Part shown: piece by piece, positions 37,506 to 50,257 of the stretch
Position numbering within the stretch: position 1 is the stretch's first letter
How the letters are laid out: every line of letters starts with the position of its first letter
DNA from: Paludisphaera borealis
GTDB taxonomy: Bacteria; Planctomycetota; Planctomycetia; Isosphaerales; Isosphaeraceae
Direction of reading: 5' to 3'
Assembly (NCBI RefSeq): GCF_001956985.1
Contig: NZ_CP019082.1
Coordinates: forward strand, 3,534,001-3,598,000
DNA length: 64,000 nucleotides
The notes under the pieces: generated by a model
The model's input: only the letters and a program-made list of their open reading frames with translations
Database searches by the model: none
Told to the model about the DNA's origin: nothing
Program-made: the position numbers and the translations under genes

Positions 37506-37789
37506 CGCTCGGCCCCTTGAAGTCCATCGCCCGCCCCAATCCGCCCCGGCATGATCGCCGGGCCTCGCTCTGACCACGACGGTGGGGCCGGGCGATAGAC
37601 AAGGCCGCCAAGATAGCCCGCCCGACGGCCCAACGCAAAGGGGGAGCGCCCAGGTCCTCAAGGGAATGGGTCGCGATTATCACAGCCCGATGAGTGGAAC
37701 AACTGGACCGAAAACGACATGATGCAGGGAAGAGAGTTCGGTCCCGCGCGCGTCGGGACGTTCGGTCGCGAGGCAGGTGGAGTGGATCG

Positions 37790-38710
37790 GTGGTCGACTT
37801 ACGTGTGACGCTGGGACGGTTGTCGCTTCAAAACCCCGTGCTCGTGGCCTCCGGCACCTTCGGCTACGTCCGCGAGATGGCCGGGTTCGTGCGGCTCGAC
37901 CGCCTGGGGGGCGTCGTCCCCAAAACGGTGACGTTCCGGCCGAGGGCGGGCAACCCGACCCCGCGCACAGTCGAAACGGCGTCGGGCCTGCTCAACGCGA
38001 TCGGCCTGGACAACGACGGCGTCCATCACTTCCGCGACCACCACCTGCCTTACCTCCGCACGGTCGGGACCGCCGTGATCGCCAACATCGCCGGCGAGGA
38101 CGAAGACCAGTTCGTCGAGATGGCCGAAATGCTCGGCGCCGAGCCGGGCCTGGCGGCCGTCGAACTCAACATCTCGTGCCCCAACGTCAGCCACGGGCTC
38201 GATCTGGGGGTCGATCCCGTCCTGGTCGGCCGCCTAGTGCGCCGGGTGCGGTTGGCGTGTCCTCTGCCGATCATCGCCAAGCTGACGCCGAACGTAACCA
38301 GCATCGTGCCCATCGCCGCCGCCGCCGCCGAGGCCGGAGCCGACGCCGTCTGCTTGATCAACACCCTGCGCGGGATGGCCGTGAACTGGCGGACGCGACG
38401 GCCGATCCTCGCCTACGACGTCGGCGGGCTCAGCGGACCGGCTATCAAGCCGGTCGCGTTGCGGATCGTCTGGGAAGTCGCGCGCGCCCTGCCGGGGCTG
38501 CCGATCATCGGTGTCGGCGGCATCGCCAGCGCCGAAGACGCGCTCGAGTTTCTGGTGGCCGGCGCCTCGGCCGTCCAGATCGGCACCGCGACGTTCTACA
38601 ACCCCGCCGCCGCCGAGAACGTGGTCGACGACCTCGGCCGCCTGCTCGACGAGGCCGGCGTCGCCGCCGTCGCCCCGATCGTCGGCACCCTTCGCTCGAA
38701 TCGTTCCTGA
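37790..38710 (+). CDS. pyrD: Dihydroorotate dehydrogenase, class 1B-like
   Basis: A 306-residue FMN enzyme that oxidises dihydroorotate to orotate in pyrimidine synthesis. The class 1 catalytic Cys lies in ELNISCPNV (C130); FMN-binding blocks include TVETASGLLNAIGLDN, INTLRG and GVGGIASAEDALEFLVAGASAVQIGT. Length and motifs fit class 1B, which in many bacteria works with PyrK (FAD/2Fe-2S); no pyrK is adjacent. The start is GTG 37790, supported by AGGTGGAG upstream. It is the last housekeeping gene before the metal-ATPase cluster. Confidence 0.9.
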   Translation: MVDLRVTLGRLSLQNPVLVASGTFGYVREMAGFVRLDRLGGVVPKTVTFRPRAGNPTPRTVETASGLLNAIGLDNDGVHHFRDHHLPYLRTVGTAVIANIAGEDEDQFVEMAEMLGAEPGLAAVELNISCPNVSHGLDLGVDPVLVGRLVRRVRLACPLPIIAKLTPNVTSIVPIAAAAAEAGADAVCLINTLRGMAVNWRTRRPILAYDVGGLSGPAIKPVALRIVWEVARALPGLPIIGVGGIASAEDALEFLVAGASAVQIGTATFYNPAAAENVVDDLGRLLDEAGVAAVAPIVGTLRSNRS

Positions 38711-38834: not shown

Positions 38835-39146
38835 ATGTCGGACGCTGCTTTTTCGGTGAACGCGGTCCCCAGTGAAAACGGCGTGGGAACGTTGGAACTC
38901 GCCACCCGCGCCGCGCGCGACGGCGCGGCCGACGCCAGCGTGGCGGCGGCCCGGTTCTGGGCGAATTCGAGCCTGATGGTTTCGCGACTTCTCTACAACA
39001 CGGCCTACACTTTGTCGTACGGCGTCGTGTTTCCCGTCGCCTATGTCGCCAGGGCGATCCCCAACGACAACGCGGCCGTTCAGGGCGTCGTTGAAGGGGC
39101 CGAGGCCGCCGCTCGAAAAGTCGACGACTTGCTCAATCGTCCCTGA
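38835..39146 (+). CDS. Small protein of the YTLSYGVVFP family, copy 1
   Basis: A 103-residue protein with no signal peptide. A polar Ala-rich N-terminus is followed by a strongly conserved, mildly hydrophobic core, LLYNTAYTLSYGVVFPVAYVARAIP, and an amphipathic Ala-rich helix (VQGVVEGAEAAARKVDDLL). The same core recurs in the protein at 40015, so these are paralogues. No known domain. The core could form a membrane-embedded or peripheral helix. The gene begins the run of small genes leading to the P-type ATPases. Confidence 0.7.
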   Translation: MSDAAFSVNAVPSENGVGTLELATRAARDGAADASVAAARFWANSSLMVSRLLYNTAYTLSYGVVFPVAYVARAIPNDNAAVQGVVEGAEAAARKVDDLLNRP

Positions 39147-39343
39147 TCCAGTCGATTCCCGACCCGCAACCACCGATTTCGTCGACTTTCACAATCGGCC
39201 CACCGATATCTTTTGCAACGACTGTCACGAAAAAGCAGAAGACCCGGCGTCCCTAGGCCGCCCACGCGACGGCCGACACGCTTCATCAGTCATCCGCATT
39301 CGCGGAACGGGTTGGCGCCTCCCTTGAGCGGGAGCTACCGAAC

Positions 39344-39658
39344 GTGCTGGCCACGCCTAATTGGACGTTTCGGATGGTGATTGGCGGGTTGATCGCCGTT
39401 TCGGGCTCGGGGTGCGCTTCCCCGGTCGTCCGCAAGCCCTCACGGTTCGCTCAGCAATCGGCGCGCGCGCCGGACGACGGGGACTGGAAGGCGGCCCTCC
39501 GAGGTCCCCGGATTCATGGCCTTGATCGCACGCCCCACTCGCTCACCACGCTCCGGGGACTACATCAATCTCCCCGGAAGCAAGGGCCCGACCTGGCCGG
39601 CTCGCGACCGGCCGCCATCGTCGGCAGCCGACCGCCCGATGAAGGAAGCCTCCAGTAA
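39344..39658 (+). CDS. Possible small lipoprotein
   Basis: A 104-residue frame starting at GTG (GGGAGC upstream). It has a short hydrophobic segment ending VSGSGC (a possible lipobox, C24), then a polar, low-complexity Arg/Pro/Ser-rich remainder with no domain. It lies between the two YTLSYGVVFP genes on the same strand. The composition is only partly typical of coding DNA, so this call is tentative. Confidence 0.4.
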   Translation: MLATPNWTFRMVIGGLIAVSGSGCASPVVRKPSRFAQQSARAPDDGDWKAALRGPRIHGLDRTPHSLTTLRGLHQSPRKQGPDLAGSRPAAIVGSRPPDEGSLQ

Positions 39659-40014
39659 GCAACTCAGGCGATAAAAAACAGAAACCTCATCGAACAGCCC
39701 GCGCCCGAGCGACTAATATGGCATTGCCAAGGACACCAACCTCGACACGAAGGTCCCAGAGGCCAATCAATCGATATATTCAGCATACTCGAGCAAACTC
39801 GCGCCAGACCGCATCAAGTTCCCAACTATCCCACGCTGCGCCAAGTGTTGTATGATATTCCTTGGCCGTGAAGACGATTGATTTCGTATAGTTCATGAAA
39901 AGAACTTCACGCTGCACTTCAATCCGTGTTCCGAGGGCTGGGGCCGAGCCGAGTCGAAGACTTGATGGCGGGATGGCCGCTGTTTGATTCTCCCCGAATC
40001 CATGGAGACAGCCG
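39659..40014. other. Intergenic region, lower GC, no gene seen
   Basis: About 355 bases, clearly less GC-rich than the genes around it (especially 39660-39900). A minus-strand frame (about 38 residues after an internal ATG, MNYTKSIVFTAK) is too short to trust. It may be a regulatory region for the gene at 40015 or a degraded insertion. Confidence 0.4.
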
Positions 40015-40362
40015 ATGACCGACGAGGTGACGACCGAAACGCAGACGACTGATCCGTTCAAGGGCATGGCCGACATGATGGTGAACGCGGCGCAGGCGGT
40101 GAAAGAGGGATCGCTGGACGCGCGAGCCCGGGTCGAGCAGACGCTTCCTCAAGTGAATCGCTTCGTCGCGCGGCTCGTCTACACGACGAGCTACACGCTC
40201 TCGTACGGGGTGGTCTTCCCGACGGTGTTCGTGGCGCGGTCGATCCCCCGGGAGAACCCGATCGTCCACGGCCTAGTCGACGGCGCGCACGCGGCCTTCG
40301 ACGCGATCGACGAGATGCGGAAACGGAAGCAAGACGCGGCGGCGCCCGAAGTGCAGGCATAA
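40015..40362 (+). CDS. Small protein of the YTLSYGVVFP family, copy 2
   Basis: A 115-residue paralogue of the protein at 38835. The shared core reads LVYTTSYTLSYGVVFPTVFVARSIP; the flanks are an acidic Thr-rich N-terminus and a Lys/Arg-rich C-terminus (EMRKRKQDAAAP). Strong conservation of about 25 residues between otherwise diverged copies suggests a binding or membrane-inserting element. Function unknown. It precedes the 88-residue membrane-like protein and the ATPase on the same strand. Confidence 0.75.
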   Translation: MTDEVTTETQTTDPFKGMADMMVNAAQAVKEGSLDARARVEQTLPQVNRFVARLVYTTSYTLSYGVVFPTVFVARSIPRENPIVHGLVDGAHAAFDAIDEMRKRKQDAAAPEVQA

Positions 40363-40510
40363 CGAGATCGAATCGAGAGGCCGAGCGGGCCGGCGAGGGT
40401 CGTCGGTCCACACCGACTCTCGACAGGCGAACAGCGTTTTCGATAGTGTTGAATACGTGGACGCTGCTTGCCGATTCTGTCTTGATCTTCGGCGCCAGAG
40501 GTGACTTTCG

Positions 40511-40777
40511 ATGCCCATGACCCGATCCGAAGCCATGTTCTTCACCGCCGGGCTGGTGATTGGCGCCACGGCCGGTGCGAACTTTCCGCTGCTCAAGGAA
40601 AAATTCGGCCCACTTCTCTCCGGCGCGCTGGCCGGCGCGGGCTCGGCGTTCGGCGAATCGTACGCCGAGATGGCCAAGAAGGTGGCTGAAAAGGTCGAAG
40701 CCGTGCAGGACGCGATGGCCGAGATGAAGCAATCCGAGACCGCCGCCGCGGGGGCCGCCGAGGCCAAGGCCACCTGA
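40511..40777 (+). CDS. Small membrane-anchor-like protein of the ATPase cluster
   Basis: 88 residues: an N-terminal Gly/Ala-rich hydrophobic helix (MFFTAGLVIGATAGANF), a second weakly hydrophobic Gly/Ala stretch (LLSGALAGAGSAF) and a charged C-terminal helix (MAKKVAEKVEAVQDAM). Its shape resembles YtxH- or DUF5132/DUF6110-type small proteins that, from memory, accompany P1B ATPases; I cannot confirm the family. AGAGGTG precedes the ATG. The ATPase gene follows by about 190 bases. Confidence 0.65.
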   Translation: MPMTRSEAMFFTAGLVIGATAGANFPLLKEKFGPLLSGALAGAGSAFGESYAEMAKKVAEKVEAVQDAMAEMKQSETAAAGAAEAKAT

Positions 40778-40968
40778 CCATCGACGCCGCGGCGTCTCGT
40801 CCGGGGACGGTCGCTCGCGTCCGGGTCCGCTTTCGCGCCTTGCTCCGGCTCTCCAATTGGTGACGGTCGGTTCCCTCGCTCCCAGGCATTTTTCTCGTTC
40901 GCGGCCGGCGGCGAATTCGCCCGGCCTGAACGGATTTCCTCCGCGGAACGGAACGGACGAGCAAGCCC

Positions 40969-43563
40969 ATGACAGAGACCACCGCCCCAACTCCGATGGA
41001 CCTCGCCGTCAGCTTCCCGGCGCGCGGGGCGATCCGGCTCCAGAGTCGCTCCCTGTTCGCCGAGCCCGGCAACGACGCTTGCCGACGGTTCCTCGAACGG
41101 GTCTTCCAGGCCGCCGAGATCGAGGACGTCACCATCAACTCACCGCGCGACGGCGTCGAGGTCCCCCACGCCGACCTCCGTTTCCGCGCCGAGGCCCACA
41201 AGCTCAACGACGTCGTCAACCGGATCTCCGGCTTCCTCGACCCGGACCGGGTCAAGAACGGGCAGGCGACGACGGCCCCCGCGAACGGCCGCGCCCCGCA
41301 CAGCGCGAACGGCCGGGCGGCGGCCGACGGTCGAGAGCATCACGGCGTCGCGATCACCAAGGTTACGCCGGTCCGCAACGCCCAGGGGCGGGTCCGGTTC
41401 TTCCGGTACGGGTCGGTGGTCACCGACTGGGAGATCAAGCACGAGCTTCCCGGCCGGCTCCGGCTCATGAACCCGGCGATCCACCGCAAGGCCGAACTCT
41501 GCCAGGCGATCGAGCGCGAGCTGATGAGCGTGCTGGGGGTCGATTCGTACAAGACGAATCCGCTGACCAGCACCGTCCTGGTCAAGTACGACATTCACGC
41601 GCTGACCCGCGACCAGGTGATCGAGATCATCGACGGGGCGCTCGCCGCCGCCGACCATCCCGAGACGAAGGACAAGCCCGACCTCCACCTGCCGATCTGC
41701 ACGATCTCGATGCCGGTGGCGGCCGTCGCCCAATTCGCCGCGCCGGTGTTGCTGCCGGCGGCGGCGGTCCTGTTCGCCTACACGTCGATCCCGACCTTCA
41801 AGAGCGCCCGCGCGGTGATCGTCGAGGAACGGCGGCTGGGAGTCGACGTCCTCGACGCGATCGTCGTCCTGGGATGTCTGGGGACGATGTCGATCTTCCC
41901 CGGCGCGGTGCTTTGCTGGTGCCTCGGGTTCGGCCAGGTCCTGGTCAAGAAGACGCAGGACGACAGCAAGAAGCTGCTGCTGAACGCGTTCGGGAAGCAG
42001 CCGCGGTTCGTCTGGCTCTATCGCGACGGCGTGGAAGTGCAGGTCTCGCTCGACCGGCTGCAAGCCGGCGACGTGATCGTGGTCAACACCGGCGAGGTGG
42101 TGCCGGTCGACGGCATCATCACCGAGGGGCTGGCGATGGTCGACCAGCACGCCCTGACCGGCGAGTCGACCCCCGCCGAGAAGGGGGTGGGAGACCGCGT
42201 CTTCGCCTCGACCCTGATGGTCGCCGGCAAGATGCTGGTCTCGGTGGAGAAGTCGGGCAGCGAGACGGCCTCGGCGAAGATCAGCCGGATCTTGACCGAT
42301 ACCGCCGGCTACAAGCTCAACTCCCAGCACAAGGGGGAGCGGCTGGCCGACCGGGCGGTGATTCCGACCCTGACCATCGGCGCAATCGGCATGGCCACGA
42401 TGGGGCCCGCCGGCGCCGTCGCGGTGCTCAACAGCGACTTCGGCACCGGAATCCGGATGGCGGCCCCGCTGGCGATGCTCTCGACTCTGGCGTTGTGCGC
42501 GAGCAAGGGCATCCTGGTCAAGGACGGCCGCGCGCTCGAGCTGATGAACGAGATCGACACCGTCCTGTTCGACAAGACCGGCACCCTGACCCGCGAACGC
42601 CCCGAGGTCGGCCTGATCGTCAGCGGCCCCGGCTGCACCGACGACCAGATTTTGCTGTACGCGGCCGCGGCCGAGAAGAAGTTCCACCACCCGATCGCCC
42701 TGGCGATCCTCCACAAGGCCCAGGAGCGGAACCTCGAACTCCCCGAGACCGACGACAGCCAGTACAAGGTGGGCTACGGCATCACCGTGAACGTCGACGG
42801 CCGGACGATCCGCGTCGGCAGCAAGCGGTTCATGGAGCTGGAAGGCCTGCCGATGTGCAACGCCATCCGCGAGGCGCTCGAAGAGGCCCACCGCGAAGGC
42901 CACACGATGGTCATGGTCGGCGTCGACGACCAGGTCGGCGGCGCAATCGCGCTGCACGCCGCCGTCCGCCCCGAGGTCCGCGACATCATCAAGGGGCTTC
43001 GCGACCGGGGGATCAAGCACATCGCGATCATCTCGGGCGACCACGAAGCGCCCACGAAAAAGCTGGCCGAGTCGCTGGGCATGGACCGCTACTTCGCCCA
43101 GGTCTTGCCGGCCGACAAGGCCGACTACGTCGAGAAGCTCCAGAAGGAAGGCCGGAAGGTCTGCTTCGTCGGCGACGGCATCAACGACTCGATCGCCTTG
43201 AAGAAGGCCAACGTGTCGATCTCGCTGCGGGGCGCGTCGTCGATCGCCACCGACACGGCGCACATCGTCTTCATGGAGCAGGGGCTCTCCAAGCTCTGCG
43301 ACCTCCGCGACATCTCCCGCGACCTCGACCGCAACGTCAAGCGAAGCTGGAAGATGATCCTCGTCCCCAACATCGCCTGCATCGCGGGGGTCTTCACGAT
43401 GGGCTTCGGGATCATGGCGTCGGTGCTCACCAACAACGTCGCGGCCATCGGCGCGCTGGCCAACGGTATGGCGCCGCTGCGGAAGATCGCCCAGATCGAG
43501 GCCGAGAAGAAGCACGAACAGGAGCTGAGGCAAGCTTATGGCCTGGAAAGAGAAGCTCTATGA
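40969..43563 (+). CDS. P1B-type metal-transporting ATPase with two N-terminal HMA-like domains
   Basis: 864 residues. Two HMA-like regions (about 10-90 and about 150-220; the second, with LPGRLRL, looks like HMA type 2) precede TM helices, then an actuator domain with TGES (397-400), a phosphorylation site DKTGT (D535), the HP motif (FHHPIA) and GDGIND (735-740), so ATP-driven metal transport is expected. The membrane metal motif normally holding Cys (CPC, SPC or SCA) reads DFGTGIRMAAP (490-500) with no Cys, so the metal and transport mode are unclear. It overlaps the next gene by 26 bases and stands at the centre of the small-protein cluster. Confidence 0.92.
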   Translation: MTETTAPTPMDLAVSFPARGAIRLQSRSLFAEPGNDACRRFLERVFQAAEIEDVTINSPRDGVEVPHADLRFRAEAHKLNDVVNRISGFLDPDRVKNGQATTAPANGRAPHSANGRAAADGREHHGVAITKVTPVRNAQGRVRFFRYGSVVTDWEIKHELPGRLRLMNPAIHRKAELCQAIERELMSVLGVDSYKTNPLTSTVLVKYDIHALTRDQVIEIIDGALAAADHPETKDKPDLHLPICTISMPVAAVAQFAAPVLLPAAAVLFAYTSIPTFKSARAVIVEERRLGVDVLDAIVVLGCLGTMSIFPGAVLCWCLGFGQVLVKKTQDDSKKLLLNAFGKQPRFVWLYRDGVEVQVSLDRLQAGDVIVVNTGEVVPVDGIITEGLAMVDQHALTGESTPAEKGVGDRVFASTLMVAGKMLVSVEKSGSETASAKISRILTDTAGYKLNSQHKGERLADRAVIPTLTIGAIGMATMGPAGAVAVLNSDFGTGIRMAAPLAMLSTLALCASKGILVKDGRALELMNEIDTVLFDKTGTLTRERPEVGLIVSGPGCTDDQILLYAAAAEKKFHHPIALAILHKAQERNLELPETDDSQYKVGYGITVNVDGRTIRVGSKRFMELEGLPMCNAIREALEEAHREGHTMVMVGVDDQVGGAIALHAAVRPEVRDIIKGLRDRGIKHIAIISGDHEAPTKKLAESLGMDRYFAQVLPADKADYVEKLQKEGRKVCFVGDGINDSIALKKANVSISLRGASSIATDTAHIVFMEQGLSKLCDLRDISRDLDRNVKRSWKMILVPNIACIAGVFTMGFGIMASVLTNNVAAIGALANGMAPLRKIAQIEAEKKHEQELRQAYGLEREAL

Positions 43564-43852
43564 GCGCCCGCTCCGGCGCCCGCTCGACGACGGCGCGCTC
43601 GAGGCGGTCCGTTCCGAGTATCACAAGCGGCGGCACGAGATCCCCGTCCCCTCCGAGCTGGTGCTTCACCCGAGCAAGCCGGAGCTGATGACCATCAAGA
43701 CGAAGTGGCTGTCATTGGTCATCCAGTTCCACCAGGAGAAGCTGACGGTCGACGCCGAACTCTCACTGGCCGCCAAGATGATGGCCACCGATCAAAACCG
43801 CAAGCTCGCCGTGCAGTTCATCGACAGCATCGCCGACGACCTGAACCTCTAG
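43538..43852 (+). CDS. Small conserved-looking protein overlapping the ATPase gene
   Basis: 104 residues; its start overlaps the last 26 bases of the ATPase gene in another frame, implying coupled translation. It is soluble and rich in basic and helical segments (YERPLRRPLDDGALEAVRSEYHKRRHEI; FIDSIADDL at the end), with no signal peptide and no domain I recognise. Position suggests a partner or assembly factor of the ATPase. Function unknown. Confidence 0.65.
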   Translation: MAWKEKLYERPLRRPLDDGALEAVRSEYHKRRHEIPVPSELVLHPSKPELMTIKTKWLSLVIQFHQEKLTVDAELSLAAKMMATDQNRKLAVQFIDSIADDLNL

Positions 43853-43871
43853 CTCGCGATAGGAAGAGGCC

Positions 43872-44405
43872 ATGGACCCAACATCTGAGCACCCCAGCGA
43901 ACCCCGAAAACGGTTCCGCCTCCGGGCGCGAAAGCCCCTGGAGGCGCTGAACTCGGAGAACCCGCGGTTCCATGTCTTCCTGGTCGACACCGGCTGGAAC
44001 ACCCACCTGTCGCGGGTGCTCCAGGCGCATCTGCCGCTGATCCACGAGTTCCATCCCCAAGATCCGCTGTACGTGCTCACCCGCGAGCAGTCGATCAAGA
44101 TCCTCAAAAGCGCGCCCGAGCACATCGGGCTCGACCCGATCCTGGTCGTCTACGACCTCCACTGCCCCGAGGACGCCGATAGCAGGAAAGGCGAGCGCTA
44201 CCGGGGGTTCCGCCTCAACCTCGGGCTCCTCAAGAACCCCGACCAGGCGCTGCACAAGCTTCAGCAGTTCCTCCGCTTCATCTCGTGCCACCGCACCAGC
44301 CAACGCCTCGATCAAGAGGTCCAGCGCGAGCTGCACAAGGAGGGGCTGAGCAACATGGTCCGCATCCTCAAGGAGGCCTCGGAAGCCTCGATCGAGCTGA
44401 TCTAG
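43872..44405 (+). CDS. Unknown soluble protein of the ATPase cluster
   Basis: 177 residues, starting 19 bases after the previous gene with AGGAAGAGG upstream. A basic N-terminus (RKRFRLRARKPLEAL) leads into an alpha/beta-like region (RFHVFLVDTGWNTHLSRVLQAHLPLI, LYVLTREQSIKIL, GLDPILVVYDLH) and a helical C-terminus. It contains several His and two Cys residues, but not in a known metal-site spacing. No family recognised. Confidence 0.7.
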   Translation: MDPTSEHPSEPRKRFRLRARKPLEALNSENPRFHVFLVDTGWNTHLSRVLQAHLPLIHEFHPQDPLYVLTREQSIKILKSAPEHIGLDPILVVYDLHCPEDADSRKGERYRGFRLNLGLLKNPDQALHKLQQFLRFISCHRTSQRLDQEVQRELHKEGLSNMVRILKEASEASIELI

Positions 44406-44450
44406 TCGTTTCGACCGCCCCCCGCACGCTCCGTCTGAAGGACGAACGCC

Positions 44451-44660
44451 ATGAATGAGTCGGAAGTCCCGGTCCTGCCTCTGCTCCTCGGCTCGCTGAT
44501 CCTCGTCTACTTCGGGATCGAAGTGAATCGCCAGCGGAACAAGCTCCGCAAACTGTTCAACGTCTTCGACCGCGAAGAAAGCCAGATCGCCAGCCTGCTG
44601 GAAACCTGGGTCGACTCCGGCGAGTTGACGGCCTACAAGCCCGCCCACCACGGCGGCTGA
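44451..44660 (+). CDS. Small single-helix protein of the ATPase cluster
   Basis: 69 residues: one N-terminal hydrophobic helix (VPVLPLLLGSLILVYFGIEV), a basic stretch (NRQRNKLRKL) and a soluble tail ending AHHGG. It is probably anchored in the inner membrane with the tail in the cytoplasm. AAGGACG precedes the ATG. Same strand and close spacing as its neighbours; function unknown. Confidence 0.6.
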   Translation: MNESEVPVLPLLLGSLILVYFGIEVNRQRNKLRKLFNVFDREESQIASLLETWVDSGELTAYKPAHHGG

Positions 44661-44730
44661 GACGGCGGCGCGACTCGCGAACGACCGCGAATCCGGCCAC
44701 GGTTCCTCCTGAATACGTCGAGCGTGCTCC

Positions 44731-47280
44731 ATGGTCGTCGATGCCGCCCAGTCCGCGTCCGCAAACCCTTCGAGCCCGATCGACGTCGTCTGGAGCGACC
44801 GGACCTTGACGCTCCGCGATGAGGATCTCTTCGGGATGCGCGCATCCGCGCTCTCCGAGCAGTTCCTGAGGCGCGTCTTCCACGTCGAGGACGTTCGCAG
44901 CGTCGAGGTCGATCGCAGCCAGGCGACGGCCCTGGTCCGCTACAAGCCGGGCCGGCGCGGGGCGGTCGACATGCTGCAACGGATGGCGACGGCAATCCGA
45001 TCGGCCGCGACCGAGTCGACGCTCGACCTGATCGCGCCCGACCCGGCGAGCCCGAAATGGACGCTCCACCGCTGCCACGACCTGATCTCGTCGTGGGAGG
45101 TCGCCAGCGACCGCCCGGGGCTGGCGCGGCTGCGACACGCGGCGATGAGCGCCGACCCGGCGTTCGCCGTCCGGATCGCCCATCAGGCCGAGAAGCTGCA
45201 AGGGGTCCTGCACATCCGCCGGGGCCTCTTGACCGACGACCTGACGATCCGCTTTGACCCGTCGCGGACGCGGGTCGAACGCCTGGTCCGCGAACTGGAA
45301 CTCGCCGCGCGCGAGGGCCACGACTCCGACGCCGGCCTCACGGAGGCCAGCTACAAGGAAGCCGCCGCGCCCTCGCCGGTGAAGTTCGGCGCGGCCAACG
45401 CGGCCATCGCGCTGGCGACGGTCAGCGACTTCGTCTTGCCCGCCGCGTGGCCGGTGACGGCGGCGCTGCTGATCGGGACCAACCTTCGCACCTTCGGCCA
45501 GGCCGCCCGGCAGGTGTCCGAAGGCCGCGTCGGCCTGCCGGTGCTTTACACGGGCATCGCCGCCGCCACCCTGGCGACGAATCGGTTCCTTCCCTGGGCG
45601 ACGATGAGCTGGATGATGCGGTACTGGAAGCACCGCTCCCACGAGCAGAGCGCCGCCGCCCAGCGAGGGCTGCTGGGCGAGGTCGTCCACCGCCAGCCGT
45701 TCGCCCGCCTGGCCGCCGGCGTCGGCGTCGAGATTTCGGCGCCGGTGCACGGGCTCGGCCCCGGCGACGTCGTCCTGGTCGGTGCCGGCGAGCGAATCCC
45801 GATCGACGGAAAAATCGTCCGGGGCCACGCGCTGGTCGACGAGCGGATCGTTCGGGGGGTCTCGGGCCGAAGCCGGAAAAAGCCCGACGACCTCGTCCAC
45901 GCGGGGTCGATCGTCACGGCCGGCGAGATCGGCGTCGAGGTCGGCGCGGCGGGACGGGGTGAGCGGTCGCGAGCGACGCTCCTGGCCCGCGCGACGACCG
46001 CCGCGACTCGGGCGGGGGCTCATGCCCAGACTCAGGCGACGGCCGGCCAGCGGTTCGCCGAGCGCGCCGTGGTCCCCACCCTGGCCACCGCCGGGCTCGG
46101 CCTGCTCGTCGGAGGCGCGCCAACCGCTCTGGCCGTGATGCGGACCGACTACGCCTCGGGTCCCGGGCACGCCTCCTCGATCGAGAACCTTCAGGCGATC
46201 GCCCAGTGCGTCCGCGAAGGGATCGTCGTCCGCGACCCCGACGCCCTCGGCCGGCTGCTCGACGTCGACGTCTTCCTGATCGACCACCACCCGGCGCTCG
46301 AAGCGACCGAGCCCGAGATCGCCTCGGTCCGCGTCTTTCCCGGCCACTCCGAATACCAGGTCTTGCGGTTCGCCGCCTCGGCGCTGCACGACCTCGACGA
46401 CGAGCGATCGCCGGCGCTTCGGGCCGCGTGCGAGGCGCGTCGCATTCCGCCGCTCGAAGGCGTCGCGATCGAGTACGGCGGCGACCTGACCTTGCGGGTC
46501 GAGGACCAGACCGTCAAGGTCGGCAACCTCGGCGGCGACCTCCCCGAACCACCCGCCGGCCCGCCCGAGAGAGACGACGAAACGGACTCGCCCGCCGCAG
46601 CGCCGCTCGACTCGCTGATGGTCGGCGTCGACGGCCAGATCGCCGGCCTGATCCACTTCCGGCGCTCGTCCCGGCTGACCGCCGCGGCGGCGATCCACGA
46701 GCTGCGAGGCTGTTCCGAGCGGTCGCTGGCGATCGGCCTGATTTCCGAGCGCGCCGATGCGCGGCTGGGCCGGCTCGCCGACGCGATGGGCGTCGACTTC
46801 CATGAAGCCGGGCTCTCGAACGACGACGTCGCCCACCTGATCCGGGCCTGCCGCAAACGGGGGCTGACGATCGCCTACGTCGGCGACTGCCTGGCCCGTC
46901 CCGCCGCCGCCCGCGAGGCCGATTTGGCCATCGGCCTCGACGCCCGCGACCTCCTGGACCTCGACTGCAATCCGGCCGTCGCCGTCTTCCTTCAACCCGA
47001 TCTCGACAAGCTCGCCGCGCTCTACGACGTCGCCGGATCGCAGCTCGAAGGCATGCGGGCGGCCCAGAGTTCAGCCCTCTTGCCGAACCTGTTCTGCGTC
47101 GCCGGCGCGTTCCTGCTGGGCTTCACGTCGATGACCACCGTGATCGTCACCAACCTGGCGACCTACAGCACTTACGCCCGCAATGCCTCCGCGATCCGCG
47201 GCCTGGAACACCGACTCTCCCAGTTCACGCCCCGGCGTCGTTCGCGGCGGGCTCGCCCGGACGCGCCGCGGACGCCCTGA
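44731..47280 (+). CDS. Catalytically degenerate P-type ATPase paralogue (pseudo-ATPase)
   Basis: 849 residues, collinear with the ATPase at 40969: two HMA-like N-terminal regions, TM helices, and actuator-, P- and N-like regions. Every catalytic motif is altered. TGES is now RGVS (375-378, catalytic Glu to Val); DKTGT is now DHHPA (D518 kept, KTGT lost); the HP motif is ERSP; GDGIND is GDCLAR (718-723). The membrane motif aligns as DYASGPGHASS. The frame is long, intact and typical in composition, so it is selected as a protein, not decaying. It probably serves as a structural, regulatory or metal-binding partner of the active ATPase. Confidence 0.88.
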   Translation: MVVDAAQSASANPSSPIDVVWSDRTLTLRDEDLFGMRASALSEQFLRRVFHVEDVRSVEVDRSQATALVRYKPGRRGAVDMLQRMATAIRSAATESTLDLIAPDPASPKWTLHRCHDLISSWEVASDRPGLARLRHAAMSADPAFAVRIAHQAEKLQGVLHIRRGLLTDDLTIRFDPSRTRVERLVRELELAAREGHDSDAGLTEASYKEAAAPSPVKFGAANAAIALATVSDFVLPAAWPVTAALLIGTNLRTFGQAARQVSEGRVGLPVLYTGIAAATLATNRFLPWATMSWMMRYWKHRSHEQSAAAQRGLLGEVVHRQPFARLAAGVGVEISAPVHGLGPGDVVLVGAGERIPIDGKIVRGHALVDERIVRGVSGRSRKKPDDLVHAGSIVTAGEIGVEVGAAGRGERSRATLLARATTAATRAGAHAQTQATAGQRFAERAVVPTLATAGLGLLVGGAPTALAVMRTDYASGPGHASSIENLQAIAQCVREGIVVRDPDALGRLLDVDVFLIDHHPALEATEPEIASVRVFPGHSEYQVLRFAASALHDLDDERSPALRAACEARRIPPLEGVAIEYGGDLTLRVEDQTVKVGNLGGDLPEPPAGPPERDDETDSPAAAPLDSLMVGVDGQIAGLIHFRRSSRLTAAAAIHELRGCSERSLAIGLISERADARLGRLADAMGVDFHEAGLSNDDVAHLIRACRKRGLTIAYVGDCLARPAAAREADLAIGLDARDLLDLDCNPAVAVFLQPDLDKLAALYDVAGSQLEGMRAAQSSALLPNLFCVAGAFLLGFTSMTTVIVTNLATYSTYARNASAIRGLEHRLSQFTPRRRSRRARPDAPRTP

Positions 47281-47300
47281 TCGAAAGTCTTCCGAATCCC

Positions 47301-47627
47301 ATGAACGCCCCAGCGGACCCCATCAACGACCCGACCGCGACCCCGGACGCCGAAGCCGCGTACGCCCACCGGATCGAAGACCTTCCCAAAGAGGTCGGCG
47401 TCATGCTGATAACAGTCGGCGTGCTCGGCATGGCGCTCCCAGGCGTCGTCGGCGGACCGGCATTGATCGCCGGCGGCCTGGTCCTCTGGCCGAAGACCTT
47501 CGGCCGGGTCGAGAGCTGGTTCGAACGGCGGTTCCCTAAAGCCCATCTCCACAGCATGCAGCAGATTAACCGCTACCTCGACGACCTCGAAAAGCGGTTC
47601 CCCGAATCCGATCAGCCCAAGGGCTGA
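47301..47627 (+). CDS. Small two-helix membrane protein ending the ATPase cluster
   Basis: 108 residues; a polar N-terminus, then two close hydrophobic segments (VGVMLITVGVLGMALPGVVGGPALIAGGLVLW) and a charged C-terminal helix (INRYLDDLEKRF). It resembles PGPGW-type small transmembrane proteins, but the match is weak. It starts 20 bases after the pseudo-ATPase, and its last 16 bases overlap the convergent methyltransferase gene. Function unknown. Confidence 0.65.
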   Translation: MNAPADPINDPTATPDAEAAYAHRIEDLPKEVGVMLITVGVLGMALPGVVGGPALIAGGLVLWPKTFGRVESWFERRFPKAHLHSMQQINRYLDDLEKRFPESDQPKG

Positions 47628-49545: not shown

Positions 49546-49872
49546 TCAGTTCGACGCCGGCGGCTGGTATTCGACCGCGCCGGTCGCCGCGGTGGTCGAC
49601 GCCGCGCCGGGGACCTCGAACTTGGGAGCGGCTTCGGTGTACGTCGCCTCGGCCTTGGGCGCGTCGTAGGTCTTGGGCGCGCTCTGGTAAGGCGAGGAGT
49701 AGCTCGAGATCGATGCGTCGTCGAGGCCGCTGGTGACGTCGCTGAGCCCCTTCTTGAACTCGACGATGCCCTTGCCGAGCGAACGGCCCACTTCGGGGAG
49801 CCGCTTGCCGAACAGCAAAACGGCGATCCCCATCACGATGATCATTTCCATCGGACCGAGATTGGGAAGCAT
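49546..49872 (-). CDS. TatA/TatB-like protein no. 1
   Basis: 108 residues: an N-terminal TM helix (MEMIIVMGIAVLLFG), the Tat hinge and amphipathic helix (KRLPEVGRSLGKGIVEFKKGL), then a long Pro/Thr/Ala-rich tail. This is the pore or receptor subunit of twin-arginine export, moving folded proteins across the inner membrane. Last of three consecutive TatA-like genes; no TatC is in the window. Confidence 0.88.
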   Translation of the reverse strand: MLPNLGPMEMIIVMGIAVLLFGKRLPEVGRSLGKGIVEFKKGLSDVTSGLDDASISSYSSPYQSAPKTYDAPKAEATYTEAAPKFEVPGAASTTAATGAVEYQPPASN

Positions 49873-49939: not shown

Positions 49940-50158
49940 CTACGCCAGGTCGTTCGGCGGCGTGATCTTCTTGTCGGCGGTGACGGCCTGATCGATCTCG
50001 TCCTCGATCCCCGCCACGCCCTTCTTGAACTCGGTGACGCTCTTGCCGAGCGACCGCATCACGCTCGGCAGGCGGTTGCCGAACATCAGGAGGGAGACGA
50101 AGGCGACGATCACGAGTTCGGTCGTGCCAAGGTTCGGCAGGAAAGCGAAAGGCAGCAT
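49940..50158 (-). CDS. TatA-like protein no. 2
   Basis: 72 residues: LVIVAFVSLLMFG helix, hinge NRLPSVMRSLGKSVTEFKKGV and an acidic C-terminus. ATG 50158 has GAGGA upstream. Shorter than no. 1, close to a standard TatA. Same strand, 67 bases upstream of no. 1. Confidence 0.85.
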   Translation of the reverse strand: MLPFAFLPNLGTTELVIVAFVSLLMFGNRLPSVMRSLGKSVTEFKKGVAGIEDEIDQAVTADKKITPPNDLA

Positions 50159-50257
50159 GGTGGTGTTCCTCGGGTCAGGTCGGGGCAGGGCCAGGCGGTC
50201 TCTTTCGTATCGATTCACGCGAAGGGCGACGGCGTCAGGTTGGCGGCGACACACGTT

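Follow-up and report, generated by a model that had tools for sequence, protein, structure and literature searches.

A conserved planctomycete gene cluster pairing a P1B-type ATPase with a catalytically dead paralogue

The P-type ATPases are pumps familiar from any textbook, and it is unusual to find a dead one kept as a partner; why, then, should a bacterium carry, just downstream of an apparently working P1B-type ATPase, a second one without its full catalytic motifs? The question is raised by a locus of Paludisphaera borealis (genome 7,651,896 bases, three contigs) within a 64,000-nucleotide stretch of contig NZ_CP019082.1 (positions 3,534,001 to 3,598,000; hereafter the window), where nine genes on the forward strand, encoding ATPase A, ATPase B and seven small proteins (g1-g3, g5-g7 and g9), occupy positions 38835-47627. 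A previous reading of the window from its letters and open reading frames (the sequence-only reading) had placed these genes correctly, all on one strand, and had suggested that they might serve a planctomycete iron or other metal storage compartment. We tentatively hypothesize, with slightly more doubt than confidence, that the cluster instead encodes a hetero-oligomeric two-ATPase pump for a hard divalent cation, Ca2+ most likely, with the dead ATPase as a partner subunit.

ATPase A and its dead paralogue

ATPase A has the features of an intact pump. Its Pfam matches to E1-E2_ATPase, Hydrolase and HMA_2 (1.6e-11) exceed the gathering thresholds, its TIGR01525 match exceeds the cut-off of NCBIfam, and among its orthologues TGE, HP and GDGxND are each present in 26/26 sequences and DKTGT in 25/26. 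The A copy of locus L088 (6759-9467) reads DNTGT instead, whether through an error of sequencing or because activity has been lost a second time. An active-looking P1B ATPase with two HMA-like N-termini had been described from sequence; the catalytic half of that description stands, while the N-terminal half is only partly borne out, as Pfam calls HMA_2 in A for the second N-terminal domain (155-238) only, and two such domains are seen in a model of B. Identity reaches 90% in 66% of the columns of the third and fourth membrane helices (TM3-4) and in 58% of those of the phosphorylation and nucleotide-binding (P/N) region, and the ratio of nonsynonymous to synonymous substitution rates (dN/dS) is 0.075-0.21 (five pairs).

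ATPase B also matches Pfam E1-E2_ATPase above cut-off (4.7e-17), and the suspicion that it is a pseudo-ATPase paralogue proved right: none of 24 sequences has the full TGE, DKTGT and GDGxND motifs, and only a few retain parts of them, such as GDG without ND. Its AlphaFold model (predicted local distance difference test score, pLDDT, 82.5) has the P-type ATPase fold with two N-terminal ferredoxin-like domains of HMA type, and its best Foldseek matches are P1B ATPases (1.2e-31). The N-terminal domains may invite comparison with the CoBaHMA domain of calcyanin, on which we build no claim. In a tree of 41 ATPases, built by a quick method and with two long rows flagged, A and B each make up one side of a branch with support of 100, and B is monophyletic (12/12 rows; Shimodaira-Hasegawa-like approximate likelihood-ratio test, 100). 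B is under purifying selection, with dN/dS of 0.26-0.40 (five pairs, synonymous divergence 0.5 to 1.6); this range leaves out the G327/G337 pair, whose silent divergence of 0.01 makes its ratio of 3.0 unusable, and the pair formed by the window and L089 (0.317) has no A counterpart. Columns with at least 90% identity are most frequent in TM3-4 of B (18%), falling to 3% in both the P/N region and the N-terminal part. Retained are the membrane residues of A: by A numbering, Asp490 in 24/24 B sequences, Pro800 in 23/24, Asn801 in 22/24 and Asn823 in 24/24. A and B agree in at least 80% of rows at 57 columns in all, these four among them, which are therefore not the sole residues common to the two.

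The two ATPases travel together. Wherever DNA downstream of A is present, B follows A on the same strand (23/23 loci: the window, L065, L067, L068 and L070 to L088; 22/22 without the window), and the core order g2-(g3)-A-(g5)-(g6-g7)-B-g9 recurs in Isosphaeraceae, in a second family of the class and in metagenome-assembled genomes (MAGs) of Pirellulales, Acidobacteriales and Rhodopila. The gene pair g5/A overlaps by exactly 26 bases in the window, as had been noticed, and again in nine other loci (L064, L070, L071, L072, L074, L075, L080, L085 and L086); given this and the 22 other instances of A followed by B, the cluster is not a chance arrangement. Among 118 relatives, A was found in 31 (E up to 1e-120), each with a B match at a separate place, although in G334 and G336 this match is only a fragment and that of G334 is weak (227 bits); B turned up in just one of the 87 relatives without A, G327 (E up to 1e-50), and the 6.8-kb contig that carries it has a partial A-like match as well. 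Within the window's family the system is common (29 of the 45 members searched, counting the window), whereas elsewhere it is sporadic: with B as query, no genome but that of P. borealis gave a match better than 7e-27 among 294 sampled over the phylum (up to three candidates were scored in each), and in the class of Rhodopila one of 337 genomes, Rhodopila itself, has A, with more distant relatives in five (at most two scored per genome). The sequence-only reading had considered a variant with a dead ATPase partner and had proposed comparing gene order, with small genes that fail to accompany the ATPases as a refuting result; that result did not arise, and a conserved system of an HMA_2 P1B ATPase with a dead partner does recur, small genes included. 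Gene order thus supports the partnership well, and A and B probably work as a complex.

The Rhodopila and Acidobacteriales copies lie inside Isosphaeraceae in the A part of the tree and are sisters in the B part, which suggests that the cluster may have been transferred between phyla. Both copies are on MAG contigs, and wrong binning has therefore to be considered. For a protein flanking the cluster on the Rhodopila contig, relatives occur at 60% identity at another place in the same genome and at 52% within the order (matches in 23 of 40 genomes), and for one on the Acidobacteriales contig partial relatives within that order reach 60% (matches in 30 of 41 genomes); these matches, from one protein per contig and with planctomycetes outside the search, support the MAG assignment.

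The transported ion and the proposed pump

The membrane residues of A depart from those of its relatives. The fourth membrane helix (TM4) motifs of soft-metal P1B ATPases carry cysteine, as CPC, SPC or TPC. In A the corresponding helix reads N[SA]D[FML]GTGIRMAAP, and no such motif, nor any cysteine, occurs there in 26/26 rows. The HN motif that P1B6 ATPases have in the sixth helix (TM6; PMC9374683) is likewise absent from A, which has NN in all 25 rows reaching that position. At the same positions the P1B6-like ATPases of G396 and G543, which branch just outside the A group, have DYSCALK/THN and DYSCGVR/LHN against DFGT/TNN in A, so that A has Thr and Asn in place of the soft ligands Cys and His. 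The residues D490 (26/26), N801 (26/26) and N823 (25/25) are invariant among the A rows. An A-like ATPase with the same GTGIR and NN signature (46% identity) is encoded on a Methylobacterium plasmid, where a CorA gene follows across the start of the record; the plasmid search with A gave two distant matches at 1e-80, and that with B none at 1e-30. A wider family of P1B ATPases in which GTGIR replaces the TM4 cysteine was also seen at L117 (9926-15408, a Gloeothece plasmid) and L112 (5180-8327), adjoining DUF5132-type and HMA_2 proteins.

The neighbourhood points in a similar direction. When the flanking genes of 25 loci were clustered, 10 loci had a protein of the sodium/calcium exchanger family (the one scanned gave 3.1e-38 in Pfam), and this is the commonest recurring neighbour of the cluster. 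A whole-genome search of 24 cluster-bearing genomes gave 79 exchanger matches, mostly two per protein and hence some 40 genes, one of which lies less than 3 kb from the A-B cluster in 11 genomes (G298, G311, G320, G322, G325, G328, G359, G382, G391, G393 and G394), among them members of the second family, Rhodopila, Pirellulales and Acidobacteriales; in a twelfth, G302, an exchanger gene lies some 1.2 kb or less from a second copy of A. By chance about 0.1 genome would be expected (40 genes, 15-kb targets, 7-Mb genomes), an estimate to be read with the reservation that related genomes are not independent.

From these observations we infer a physical complex, its ion, its direction of transport and the roles of its small proteins as follows. 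The whole cluster would encode a single membrane machine, a hetero-oligomeric cation pump with two ATPases, in which A would be the working P1B-type subunit and B an anciently duplicated dead copy that keeps the membrane part with its Asp/Asn ion-site residues, and that would partner A through a shared or regulatory ion site or in assembly. The product of g5 would be a detached C-terminal domain of A, and g2, g3, g7 and g9 small membrane-associated proteins that assemble or localise the pump in PacL-like fashion. The ion, a hard divalent cation and in all likelihood Ca2+ if any one is to be named, would be moved from the cytoplasm to the periplasm or to an internal membrane space, in functional connection with a Ca2+/H+ antiporter. 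Calcium, argued from residue chemistry and neighbourhood, is a weaker step than the partnership of A and B, and we hold it to be possible but on balance doubtful. It is tempting to go further and speculate, at a level we would ourselves call unlikely, that live pump and dead twin are obligate partners in one heteromeric P-type ATPase, a transporter with two ion sites; its P1B lineage would have exchanged soft metals for a hard cation, Ca2+, and would have moved between phyla as a unit, perhaps filling a calcium store inside the cell. Were B indeed a subunit, ion-site and catalytic functions would be naturally separated; were the ion Ca2+, a heavy-metal pump lineage would have altered its chemistry by exchanging a few residues in the membrane, and there would be a handle on calcium handling in planctomycetes.

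Several observations weigh against this proposal. The transmembrane residues alone do not fix the ion, and antiporters of the sodium/calcium-exchanger family can carry ions other than calcium. In P. borealis itself the one exchanger gene found is about 109 kb from the cluster, and 12 of the 24 genomes have no exchanger near either A copy, some of these being on short contigs. The cluster-adjacent exchangers are also not one clade: in a tree of 30 (12 neighbouring and 18 distant), 10 of the 12 join seven distant copies in a group of 17 rows, those of Rhodopila and Acidobacteriales form a separate pair, another seven distant copies stand apart and are taken for a housekeeping type, and four distant rows have very long branches and a doubtful placement. 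The evolutionary rate of B is two to three times that of A, as would be expected under weak constraint but equally after the gain of a new role. One or more of g3, g5, g6 and g7 are missing in some loci, with g2 and g9 also absent from L077 and L079, and a second Rhodopila locus, L106 (7016-14306), has A, g2, g6 and g7 with no B within its 19.5 kb. The A copy of L106 adjoins a P1B ATPase of DYGTGIR/SNG type on the opposite strand.

How do other explanations fare? The cluster could be a ferrosome, with A a FezB-like P1B6 pump loading iron into a membrane-bounded store, and the HMA_2 domain of A, its P1B6-like nearest outsiders in the tree and the small membrane proteins around it would all suit this; FezB is described, in the portion of the literature drawn on here, as a putative ferrous iron transporter (PMC10979944). 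Pfam gave no match to the FezC-like domain DUF4405 among the window genes, however, and the DUF4405 matches of 13 cluster-bearing genomes fall elsewhere (in P. borealis the only one is at 7.185 Mb, against 3.57 Mb for the cluster). As there is no FezC-like gene nearby and no HN motif in TM6, the Cys and His of the P1B6-like relatives being replaced, and as the recurring neighbour is of calcium-exchanger type, the iron store suggested from sequence is not upheld, and we regard it as quite improbable, FezA and FezB being compared by description only. Slightly less improbable, to our minds, is an efflux platform for soft metals (Zn, Cd or Cu) of PacL-CtpC type, with small membrane scaffolds and the dead ATPase as an extra one. 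Here g3, a small transmembrane and Ala/Glu-rich protein beside a P1B ATPase, resembles PacL1, which is encoded beside CtpC (PMC9374683, as far as drawn on), but 0/15 g3 family members match DUF1490 or DUF6110, although a distant relation to the latter is possible, the g3 alignment has no conserved C-terminal metal-binding motif, and the TM4 cysteine is wanting in every A row.

Two further alternatives concern B. It could be a free-standing sensor or a passive channel derived from a pump, with A working alone, as its long branches, the contrast between its P/N region and TM3-4, the loss of the N-domain motif region in L084, L085 and L086 and the nearby absence of B at L106 might all suggest; this seems to us unlikely, if worth keeping in mind, in view of the tight linkage of B to A in both order and presence. 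That B is simply a decaying pseudogene, with its catalytic motifs gone and the L067 copy shortened to 559 residues, is scarcely credible given open frames of 559-888 amino acids in 24 loci, a single origin and the dN/dS values above. The two-ATPase pump is the reading that we carry forward.

Small proteins and flanking genes

The layout of the cluster is given in Table 1. The gaps separating g5, g6, g7, B and g9 measure 19 to 70 bases, which would fit one operon, and an Rfam scan of the window and seven related loci returned one tRNA and no riboswitch.

Table 1. Genes of the two-ATPase cluster in the window
Gene	Coordinates	Strand	Product and features
g1	38835-39146	+	103 aa (amino acids); g2 paralogue; core YTLSYGVVFP
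g2	40015-40362	+	115 aa; core YTLSYGVVFP; first gene of cluster core
g3	40511-40777	+	88 aa; hydrophobic segment 10-28, then Ala/Glu-rich stretch
ATPase A	40969-43563	+	864 aa; intact P1B-type ATPase, HMA_2; TM4 NSDFGTGIRMAAP, TM6 TNN
g5	43538-43852	+	104 aa; 26-base overlap with A
g6	43872-44405	+	177 aa; no hydrophobic segment; motif DTGWN
g7	44451-44660	+	69 aa; single hydrophobic segment (7-25) and small C-terminal part
ATPase B	44731-47280	+	849 aa; catalytically dead P1B-type paralogue (pseudo-ATPase)
g9	47301-47627	+	108 aa; single hydrophobic segment; PGPGW/DUF454-like family

At least six small unknown proteins had been noticed; there are seven, none of which matches Pfam or NCBIfam above a curated cut-off (for g2, g5 and g7 the scans covered the window protein, for g3, g6 and g9 the family as well). 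The pair said to share a core motif is g1 and g2, and a g1-like copy stands downstream of the cluster in several other genomes. Of 22 testable loci, 20 have g2 upstream of A, and 20 of 22 have g9 downstream of B (window included in both); g3 is found in 13/23 and g6 and g7 together in the same 16/23, small-gene counts per locus being dependent on BLAST limits. Separate g5 genes outside the ten loci with the 26-base overlap overlap A by other lengths, g5 is fused to the A C-terminus in L073, L077, L079 and L084, and it was not found in L065, L067 or L068; because of the overlap and the fusions it is best read as a detached C-terminal domain of A.

The families themselves gave few clues. In Pfam, g3 and g6 produced scattered weak matches only (best 0.016 and 0.033), and profiles of g2 and g3 against two DUF5132-type partners of relatives were negative or very weak. 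The g6 model is moderate (pLDDT 80.6), and its top Foldseek matches, thioredoxins and KaiB, are not significant (best E 0.15). A match of g7 to FeoC was below threshold (0.0031; 18 bits against a cut-off of 21) and was not used. In the g9 family, 5/20 members match PF09656 (PGPGW; best 2.3e-5) and also DUF454, with no match for g9 of the window.

Row selection bears on the counts above. L061 and L062 were dropped as the same contigs as L071 and L074, and with them the CPC-type ATPase of L062/L074, two B-matching HMA-DUF454 proteins and B matches of up to 400 residues (the truncated copy of L064). The B copy of L067, better matched by BLAST to A, was assigned by position.

Other genes recur or lie near the cluster. 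DUF454-domain proteins, some with an HMA-like part, occur beside it at L067 4560-5831, L076 2030-3169 and L088 14435-15295, and L082 19517-20000 was placed among them with no domain scan; EcsC and AraC-type genes also recur. Directly upstream in the window, at 37694-38710, is a gene that we take, from its sequence, to be dihydroorotate dehydrogenase-like, matched upstream elsewhere only in L061/L071 and L070 among the loci searched. Two adjacent short genes on the reverse strand (49546-49872 and 49940-50254), whose products are presumably TatA-type translocase subunits, have their two-gene family downstream of the cluster in L070 as well.

Comparison with known systems

The closest pumps in our comparison are the P1B6-like HMA_2 ATPases, with which A shares domain order, catalytic motifs, TIGR01525 and a place in the tree among DYSC/HN relatives. 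It differs from them in the exchange of TM4 Cys for Thr and TM6 His for Asn, in the dead paralogue downstream and in the separate C-terminal g5; the partner typical of P1B6 ATPases is a DUF6110-family protein (PMC9374683). The PacL-CtpC platforms, or effluxosomes, of mycobacteria also have a small membrane protein beside a P1B6-like ATPase (PMC9374683; PMC13043812), to which g3 is similar in shape only, by its hydrophobic segment and Ala/Glu-rich tail. As far as those sources were drawn on, the present cluster differs in having neither DUF1490 nor CPC, and in its several small proteins, dead ATPase partner and calcium-type neighbourhood. Ferrosome fez clusters likewise group a P1B-type ATPase with small membrane proteins, but the cluster described here, set against what the same partial accounts give (PMC10979944; PMC12016538), has a dead ATPase and a neighbour of calcium-exchanger type, and lacks FezC/DUF4405. 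A has an HMA_2 domain and is placed near P1B6-like relatives, from which it differs in its transmembrane residues, FezB itself being compared by description only. HMA_2 was found in 1 of 195 genomes of the phylum to which an Erysipelotrichaceae locus belongs.

Searches of open-licence papers turned up neither a dead partner of a P-type ATPase nor this cluster or a related one. To our knowledge, no P-type ATPase is constantly accompanied by a retained paralogue that is catalytically dead, and in no multi-subunit P-type pump is one of the subunits a dead paralogue of the pump. Multi-subunit P-type pumps are nevertheless familiar, and in KdpFABC, Na,K-ATPase and P4-CDC50, as in the machine proposed here, a P-type pump is joined by accessory subunits.

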